From NCBI RefSeq assembly GCF_030252185.1, contig NZ_CP126970.1:496001-560000 (forward strand): a DNA stretch of 64,000 nucleotides. The letters are read 5' to 3'. The notes under the pieces are model-generated. The model saw only the letters and a list, made by a program, of their open reading frames with translations. It had not been told where the DNA came from and searched no databases. A program made the position numbers and the translations under genes. Source of the stretch: Corynebacterium suedekumii. Lineage in GTDB: Bacteria > Actinomycetota > Actinomycetes > Mycobacteriales > Mycobacteriaceae. This document shows, in pieces, positions 3,656-4,880 of this stretch; the first letter of the stretch is position 1; each line of letters starts with the position of its first letter.

Positions 3656-3670
3656 GCCGAACCCCCGGAA

Positions 3671-3740
3671 GTCACGCGGATTCGACAACGACGGGCACGT
3701 TTGCCCAGGTCGTGGCCGGAGACCGGTGACATCCGCGTGA
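3671..3740. repeat. Hairpin element, copy 1
   Basis: Intergenic hairpin with 10-bp perfect arms (TCACGCGGAT at 3672-3681, ATCCGCGTGA at 3731-3740) and a 49-nt loop. The loop shares CGTTT-x-CCCAGGTCG and a following CGGAG with the loop of the element at 4782-4852, so the two are related copies flanking the gene at 3803-4780. It begins 16 bases after the pknG stop and could also slow transcription there. It has no T run. Confidence 0.75.
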
Positions 3741-3802
3741 ATTCTCGGGAGCCTTGACGGCTCCGACAGGTACGACGGCGCTCACCGGGATACGGTGAAC
3801 CC

Positions 3803-4780
3803 ATGAGTGGAGCCGGGGGGCCTCTCGTCGACATCGTCACGCTGTCGGACGGGGAGCAGCGGAAGTTTCGACAGGGCGGGAATGCGGTCAGGTTGGCCCG
3901 GGGGATCTACATTCCCACGGACACCTGGCGGACGCTCGATCGCCGGTCCCGGGCCGTCGCCCGGATCGTGGCGGCCGGCCGCACCGCGCCGACGCTCATG
4001 GTCGCCGGGAAATCCGCGGCGGTCATCCACGGCATGCCGCTGCCCGGGTACGACGACACCCACGATATCGAGCTGGCGGGATGCGGCGCCACCAGCGGAC
4101 GACGCAGCACCCGCGGATTCCGGTACCGGAACATTCCACCCGCCCACCAGCTGCTGGTGGAGACGGTGTCCACCCGCTTCGGCCCCGTCCACGTGTCCCC
4201 ACCGTCGATGGCCGGCCTCGACGTGGCGAGATGGCACGACCTCGCCGCCGGTGTCCGCTGCCTCGACCACGCGCTGGCCACGGGCCTCACCACCCGGGAG
4301 GACATCGAGCGGGTTATCCAGGTGGGGAACAGGGTCACCGGGGTCGGCACCATGCGGGAGGCCGGGCGGCTCGCGACCCCGTGGTCCCAGAGTCCCCGCG
4401 AATCAGACCTCAAGGTCGCGCTCTGGAGAGCGGGACTTCCGCCACCGCAGCAGCAGGTCATGCTCTTCGACGCAGACGGGGTGTTCCTGGCCCGCCTCGA
4501 CTTCTTCTGGCCGGAGATCGGGTTCGGGGTGGAGTACGACGGCCAGGGGAAGTTCACCGGGGAGTTCGGGGTCCCGGTGGAGGTGTCGGCCCGGCAGGAC
4601 ATGGAACGCCAGCACCGCATCGTCAACCTCGGGGTGCTCCTGTTCCGGGTGGACCGGAGCACCTACCTGGACGGTTCGGCCGTGGCCGGGATCGTCGGGA
4701 TGCACGGCCGGGTGGCGGAGCGGGGCATCCCGCTGGCACCGGCGTTCTGGCGTGGCGGCGGTCTCGCCTGGACGCCCTGA
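3803..4780 (+). CDS. AbiEi-like / DUF559-type nuclease-fold protein
   Basis: 325 aa. The N-terminal half resembles the antitoxin/AbiEi-type domains common in actinobacteria (VAGKSAAVIHGMPLP at about 67-81). The C-terminal half has a DUF559/Vsr-like PD-(D/E)XK pattern: Glu 200 (ESDLKVALWRAG), Asp 233 (RLDFFWPEIG), then VEYDGQGKF with Glu 244, Asp 246 and Lys 250. These are positions expected for a metal-dependent nuclease active site. It stands alone, not in an operon, and is bracketed by two related hairpins (3671-3740, 4782-4852). The ATG at 3803 has a weak ribosome binding site. The biological role is unknown; genes of this class are usually accessory. Nuclease activity is inferred from the motif only. 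Confidence 0.75.
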   Translation: MSGAGGPLVDIVTLSDGEQRKFRQGGNAVRLARGIYIPTDTWRTLDRRSRAVARIVAAGRTAPTLMVAGKSAAVIHGMPLPGYDDTHDIELAGCGATSGRRSTRGFRYRNIPPAHQLLVETVSTRFGPVHVSPPSMAGLDVARWHDLAAGVRCLDHALATGLTTREDIERVIQVGNRVTGVGTMREAGRLATPWSQSPRESDLKVALWRAGLPPPQQQVMLFDADGVFLARLDFFWPEIGFGVEYDGQGKFTGEFGVPVEVSARQDMERQHRIVNLGVLLFRVDRSTYLDGSAVAGIVGMHGRVAERGIPLAPAFWRGGGLAWTP

Positions 4781-4781
4781 A

Positions 4782-4852
4782 GTCACGCGGATTCCCCAGG
4801 GGCGGTCGCGTTTTCCCAGGTCGCGTCGGAGTACCGGGGGAATCCGCGTGAC
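4782..4852. repeat. Hairpin element, copy 2
   Basis: Perfect 16-bp inverted repeat: arm 4782-4797 begins GTCACGCGGATT and arm 4837-4852 is its exact complement, with a 39-nt loop containing TTTTCCCAGGTCG. It starts two bases after the stop codon of the DUF559 gene. It is related to copy 1 at 3671-3740 in both stem and loop. Confidence 0.85.
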
Positions 4853-4880
4853 AACCGGGCACCTCGGCACCAACGGCAAC

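Follow-up and report, generated by a model that had tools for sequence, protein, structure and literature searches.

The closest described systems in which a gene is accompanied by its own palindromes are the REPtrons, in which a RAYT gene, encoding a tyrosine transposase of the Y1 (HUH) type, is flanked by cognate REP palindromes in inverted orientation; the passages of these accounts on which we draw report that the presence of the gene correlates with cognate copies, that the two coevolve and that the gene evolves faster than its neighbours, and they describe REPs as 20–40 bp long with a GT(A/G)G head, usually in more than 100 copies per genome (PMC2817692, PMC8266576). Palindrome-type miniature elements such as REPINs and Correia elements, as portrayed in the portions of the literature consulted, are also intergenic palindromic or inverted-repeat elements with conserved parts, but the palindromes reported here differ in that their arm sequences link them to a nuclease-like gene of the same genome. 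A repeat of the type described below does not appear in the passages of PMC2267715 and PMC5217627 that were consulted. No association of DUF559 or AbiEi proteins with palindromes or hairpins is described in the titles and abstract openings searched (a set mostly without subscription papers and preprints).

The locus analysed here lies in a 64-kb stretch of the Corynebacterium suedekumii genome (below, the window), in which a single gene (3803..4780, forward strand) stands between two long palindromes; its neighbours, identified with Pfam, are the protein kinase G gene (pknG) and the acetate kinase gene (ackA). The upstream palindrome has extended arms spanning 3663..3749 (forward strand), with strong arms TCACGCGGAT/ATCCGCGTGA at 3672-3740, and the downstream palindrome (4782..4852, forward strand) starts one base past the stop codon and has 16-bp perfect arms. 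The exact arms TCACGCGGA/TCCGCGTGA occur in both hairpins, at 3672-3740 and 4783-4851 (69 bp each), and the loop GTTTxCCCAGGTCG...CGGAG is common to both, so the two matching hairpins that a preliminary description placed around this gene are confirmed in arms, loop and gene limits. Each also has a core at the dyad, GTTTGCCCAGGTCG in the upstream palindrome (3699..3712, forward strand) and GTTTTCCCAGGTCG in the downstream one (4810..4823, forward strand). The pattern CACGCGGAN{30,59}TCCGCGTG is found twice in the window against an expectation of 0.01 (none of 100 shuffles reached two), so the pair of window hairpins is not due to chance. In the whole 2.86-Mb genome the exact pattern occurs at three places, the two in the window and one at 969034, between a tRNA-Arg gene and a prephenate dehydrogenase gene, and reversed-pattern controls gave none. 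A hairpin-model search of this genome finds five copies with the window arm type, the two flanking ones and three solo copies, one at 969028 and two less exact ones at 604970 and 467114; of the weaker matches, four that were read have other arms. The genome-wide search for the consensus thus returned few hairpins of the same type (about five), as a link to the gene would have it, but three of them stand without the gene.

The gene encodes a 325-aa AbiEi-like protein with a probable restriction-endonuclease-fold part, as judged from profile searches and conservation. Its nearest named family is AbiEi, through a weak PADLOC match (E 1.7e-4) that covers residues 116-177 (4148..4333, forward strand). 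A Pfam search gave no significant family (only GIDE at E 0.19, under its cut-off), an NCBIfam search gave no match, and a PDB sequence search with the profile of the homologue set A5 returned only one ribosomal protein (E 0.22). Members of A5 (n = 18) match AbiEi more often, six of them Pfam AbiEi_4, three AbiEi_1 and eleven the commonest PADLOC AbiEi model. The likeness to AbiE type IV toxin-antitoxin systems therefore resides in an AbiEi-like protein, weakly so for the window protein and more strongly in its relatives; the differences are that the window locus, the only one checked, has no AbiEii-type nucleotidyltransferase partner beside pknG and ackA, that the protein has an extra nuclease-like C-terminal part, and that palindromes lie downstream as well. 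That C-terminal part, a putative nuclease domain (residues about 186-300; 4358..4702, forward strand), contains a set of invariant residues, and its fold is deduced through relatives: E200, K204, R231, D233, E244, D246 and K250 are invariant in 20 of the 20 homologues of set A4 and, except for K204, in A5 too, a combination that we take to be a PD-(D/E)XK signature. Conservation is lower in residues 1-180 than in residues 186-300 in 156 of 190 pairs. The earlier label "DUF559-type" does not hold for the window protein, which gives no match to PF04480 (DUF559) in Pfam at E <=1, nor does its C-terminal part at E <=10; the label applies only by way of distant relatives, two of the six tested, whose C-terminal parts match both DUF559 and the MTES_1575 restriction-endonuclease-like proteins (L198, DUF559 E 1.8e-8, above cut-off, and MTES_1575 E 1.4e-7; L199, DUF559 E 0.001, below cut-off, and MTES_1575 E 3.8e-5), whereas the window protein itself matches neither. 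The protein is probably an AbiEi-like part joined to a PD-(D/E)XK / DUF559-like nuclease part.

Homologues of the window protein are widespread in the genus, with matches in 166 of 242 Corynebacterium genomes and none in the other 76. Seventy Corynebacterium homologue loci, taken from a longer match list (30 via search and 40 by place), were scanned for strong palindromes, taken as stems that score 12 or more and lie no further than about 180 nt from one end of the gene, with scans beginning at 50 nt length. Such stems precede the gene in 22 loci and follow it in 28, which makes 40 loci with at least one and 10 with one at each end; they are rare in equal-sized control windows, whether taken from other parts of these loci (16 of 778) or from inside the genes (4 of 300); gene ends were placed mechanically, and the few that are misplaced (e.g., L047 and L089) add only misses or noise. 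The objection foreseen in the preliminary description, that relatives might have the gene without flanking hairpins, holds in part, as the other 30 of the 70 loci, several of them from one group of similar genomes, have no hairpin above threshold. Control open reading frames from the window and from eleven loci of two sister genomes, G013 and G217, have a hairpin on one side in 8 of 169 cases, on both sides in none, and a matched pair in none. Where both sides reach a score of at least 11 (14 of the 70 loci), the words shared average 16.7 nt within a locus and 7.8 nt between loci, and a word of at least 12 nt is shared in 10 of the 14 two-sided loci versus 13 of 182 between-locus pairings; permutation of the hairpin pairs reached the observed sum in 0 of 10,000 trials. 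In these loci each palindrome is much closer to its partner than to the palindromes found at other loci. The genome of the window supplies further cases, since its paralogues at 1997510 and 141365-142256 (the latter broken) each have a matched pair of their own with other arms, and those at 2457707, 953066 and 1135603 have a one-sided hairpin with scores of 14, 18 and 12.5, respectively, the first and last of which are within the range reached by other stretches of these loci; a very weak homologue match at 2805584 has no hairpin worth counting. In G013 and G217 the cognate palindrome is on one side of the gene only.

The association extends beyond the genus. Two further families of the class were scanned, f28, to which the Nocardioides query genome belongs, and f21; of their 30 loci, 18 have a hairpin scoring at least 12 (15 of 21 in f28 and 3 of 9 in f21) against 12 of 347 control windows; six are two-sided, five with matched pairs. 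In one f28 genome, the single case outside Corynebacterium tested for dispersal, none was seen, and its exact palindrome is present only as the two gene-flanking copies. By eye, a homologue in Streptomyces sp. SID13031 (L194) is also bordered at each end by a long palindrome; the two are alike (GGGGTTAACCCC...CAACCCACACTCTG), and the one downstream scores below threshold.

The arms of these palindromes vary between syntenic orthologues and match within a locus. Of 29 candidate hairpins 27 entered the alignment, from which 13 rows with arms misaligned by MAFFT were removed, and the remaining 14 served for the covariation count and the model. In these 14 rows 91.5% of the arm cells pair, both partners have changed in 15 of 16 pairs, and covariation scores 0.877, compared with 0.270 when shuffled and no more than 0.21 when partners are slid; row removal tilts this count towards pairing, and the slid-partner control argues against that being the whole effect. 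The arms covary. Thirty-five flank hairpins contain a CAGGTC/G core, about which the arms score at least 9 in 28 and do not in 7; in 28 of the 28 scoring hairpins the dyad is offset by 3, 4 or 5 nt and so falls within the core. The core marks only part of the family, because it is absent from 20 strong flank hairpins and from the matched pairs of the paralogues 1997510 and 141365-142256.

The site of the gene between pknG and ackA also differs among genomes. In 28 genomes in which the pknG-ackA gap was inspected, the gene is inside in six (gaps of 1249-1285 nt), pknG and ackA are less than 120 nt apart in eleven (54 nt in G013, 70 in G217, 113 in G031, and -4 to 81 in eight others), a larger gap without the gene is present in five, and pknG was not found in the fetched stretch in six. 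The empty sites whose existence in relatives had been proposed as a check are therefore there, in 11 of the 28; the sequence to either side of the window unit can be aligned with that bordering the short gaps, with, for example, 23, 37 and 130 nt left over in G013, G217 and G031, respectively, and no target-site duplication of the gene unit is resolvable at the empty gaps. The gene of the window's genome is inverted relative to the other five filled genomes. The ackA tree is compatible with gain or loss of the gene. No phage record matches the window protein at E <=0.001, and one plasmid record does so weakly. Past mobility of the palindrome-gene-palindrome unit is likely. The gene and its palindromes are a real, recurrent and co-changing unit, as the preliminary description had supposed, and the support comes from recurrence in the genus and in two further families, from matched pairs, from concerted change of the arms and from filled, empty and inverted sites.

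Some genomes carry palindromes of the cognate type away from the gene. The arm pattern TTCTCTAGAAT...ATTCTAGAGAA is present 17 times in G013 and 14 times in G217, both of which carry homologues with this palindrome, and in none of the 240 others; ACCGGCAGATTT...AAATCTGCCGGT is present five times in G012, where two copies flank its homologue, and in none of the 241 others. The two arm types tested are thus confined to 2 and 1 of the 242 genomes, those with the cognate gene. The hairpin model has matches at E <=0.01 in 54 of 242 genomes (e.g., 16 in G131, 15 in G012 and 13 in G170), many of them weak. We dropped as evidence a looser pattern, ACGCGGA...TCCGCGT, whose matches in 161 of 242 genomes are apparently mostly coding-sequence chance. 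At orthologous G013/G217 copies position and spacer are kept while the outer arms change at several sites (L147/L164, L154/L172 and L156/L173). All 19 of the G013 solo sites examined are matched in G217, an arm being lost in one case; the G217 sites at 940411 and 1816943 have no equivalent in G013, the flank being not alignable or another palindrome being in place, and among the G013 and G217 sites examined we found no clean empty site or target duplication for a solo palindrome.

Comparison with the RAYT-REP systems gives a mixed result for the analogy drawn in the preliminary description, which holds for several comparative features and fails for the enzyme and for consistent inversion of the palindromes. 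The likenesses are that the window gene lies between two cognate palindromes (at many other loci there is one on a single side, or none), that cognate copies occur elsewhere in the same genome, with the two arm types confined to genomes with the cognate gene, that the flanking palindromes of syntenic orthologues change yet stay palindromic, and that the gene outpaces its neighbours: its product is 51-59% identical among the same five species in which acetate kinase is 88-90% identical and the end of pknG (the roughly 70-80 residues contained in the stretches compared) is 84.5-88.9% identical, so that it evolves much faster than ackA. On the other hand, the enzyme is unrelated to the Y1/HUH transposases; the window protein has no Y1_Tnp match, and such matches are found in 0 of 10 genomes at E <=0.001 (the search control was positive in 5 of 14 named genomes), and we rejected RAYT enzymes as the cause because Y1_Tnp is absent from all ten. 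The palindromes here are also longer (50 nt and more, 50 nt being the scan minimum, and 69 bp in the window), the arms read have no GT(A/G)G head and there is a core, GTTTNCCCAGGTCG, at the dyad, and copies are far fewer than 100 per genome. Nor is inverted orientation consistent, since among the eight loci with both cores oriented they are inverted in four (L038, L039, L040 and L094) and direct in four (L035, which is the window, L037, L069 and L071). By these comparative features the unit resembles a REPtron, but it is not a RAYT system.

We lean towards the view that the gene and its palindromes form one DNA unit that works like a REPtron, in which the protein recognises, cuts and spreads its cognate palindrome. 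The AbiEi-like DNA-binding part and the nuclease part would together read the arms, and the core where there is one, of their own palindrome, the target being DNA as duplex, cruciform or single strand. Repair after a cut at the palindromes would then copy or move the palindrome-gene-palindrome unit, as well as solo palindromes in some lineages, after which protein and palindrome would diverge together. Binding, cutting and protein-driven spread are steps that we infer. We read the locus as a palindrome-ended unit, once or still mobile, whose protein recognises its palindrome as DNA (recognition at the DNA level being the best reading of the palindromes), and it seems to represent a type of DNA unit, made of a gene plus palindromes, that has so far gone unrecognised. 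More tentatively, and with some doubt on our part, such units may constitute a new class of palindrome-ended elements in Actinomycetes that is independent of HUH transposases, in which an AbiEi-like reader-nuclease fusion cuts its cognate palindrome and repair copies the unit or solo palindromes. If this is true, the enzymes of such units would include the products of many genes currently annotated as AbiEi-type antitoxin or DUF559 protein. The unit described here suggests that a second nuclease fold has independently adopted the REP-RAYT mode of life, with an enzyme gene placed between copies of its own palindrome that in some genomes seeds more of them, in bacteria that can lack Y1 enzymes. 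It also gives a testable function to a common, unexplained protein family and supplies many ready pairs of enzyme and site that differ in specificity.

AbiEi is known to bind inverted repeats within its own promoter, and the AbiEi-like part could accordingly be a repressor with the palindromes as operators; the dispersed copies would then make up a small regulon, and the nuclease part would act elsewhere or be vestigial. The AbiEi matches in A5 (from 6 of 18 with Pfam AbiEi_4 up to 11 of 18 with one PADLOC model) fit this, as does the distance of 25-60 nt that often separates the end of an upstream palindrome from the start codon. So does conservation in the 31 G013/G217 copies, which were chosen by exact inner arms: it is 1.45 bits in the core, 1.1-1.3 in the outer arms, 0.65-0.75 in the spacers and 0.32 further out, favouring core and outer arms over spacers as binding sites would. 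We nevertheless consider operators rather unlikely, as palindromes follow the stop codon (28 of 70) no less often than they precede the start (22 of 70), all 20 homologues share the putative catalytic residues without variation, and the 35 typed dispersed copies lie in convergent gaps in 13 cases, tandem in 14 and divergent in only 4 (the other 4 are inside open reading frames of at least 100 aa that are possibly spurious).

A domesticated chromosome system, in which the protein and the dispersed palindromes serve the host (for example in chromosome organisation or repair) and mobility has been lost, strikes us as improbable. It would account for the G013/G217 copies, which hold their positions while their arms change in step at several sites, and for the near lack of phage and plasmid matches; it is hard to square with copy numbers that are low and uneven, 2 and 5 in one genome each and at least 14-17 in two more, and with a protein that has no match in 76 of the 242 genomes of the genus.

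The preliminary description had allowed that the protein acts on hairpin RNA. The palindromes would then be RNA hairpins at both ends of the mRNA which the protein binds or cuts, and the strong predicted RNA folds (folding z-scores of -3.3 and -5.2 for the two window hairpins) and the adjoining start and stop codons are in keeping with this. However, the asymmetric core is oriented with the gene in 12 and against it in 16 of 28 hairpins, so that the transcribed loops differ, and action on RNA is disfavoured for this reason; solo copies occur away from the gene, and an Rfam search of the window gave no match at gathering scores. We give an RNA-level device very little credence. That the palindromes are ordinary terminators or chance palindromes is hardly credible, for although both window hairpins lie at gene ends and 8 of the 169 control reading frames have a one-sided hairpin, no T run follows either window hairpin in the sequence as read, none of those frames has a matched pair, the two arm types tested keep to genomes with the cognate gene, a separate hairpin that reads as terminator-like lies beside ackA in the window's genome and is kept in the empty gaps of G013 and G217, and the permutation result speaks against chance matching.

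The reading as a REPtron-like DNA unit leaves several smaller observations on the palindromes to be recorded. In the genome of the window, the solo palindromes at 969028, 604970 and 2523772 (L107, L108 and L112) are about 40-90 nt from tRNA genes (Arg, Gly and Arg, respectively), and those at 2821877, 1633653 and 2523772 (L110, L111 and L112) belong to a second type with arms around CGCGCATCTG and a similar core; arms of this type are beside none of the homologues found in this genome. Several G013/G217 palindromes (e.g., L149 and L157) are directly adjoined by a short repeat, GATCGCGACG(CCC), which is sometimes in tandem. Another palindrome family (AAACCCGCACTTCCTAACAAC...), without the CAGGTC core, is represented by L206 and L166 in the same two genomes, once at a site where the sister genome has a nuclease-type palindrome. 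The flanks of a paralogue with hairpin in G200 (L066) align to L151 and L169 of G013 and G217, where a solo palindrome with arms of a different type stands, as though one gap could take in different palindromes. Finally, positions 2964-8350 of L164 (G217:C1:745200-756500) hold a 5.3-kb metabolic block (aldehyde dehydrogenase, a 3-hydroxyisobutyrate dehydrogenase-like protein, a LysR regulator and an MFS-type transporter) between two very similar palindromes; at this site in G013 (L147) the block is absent and there is a single palindrome.
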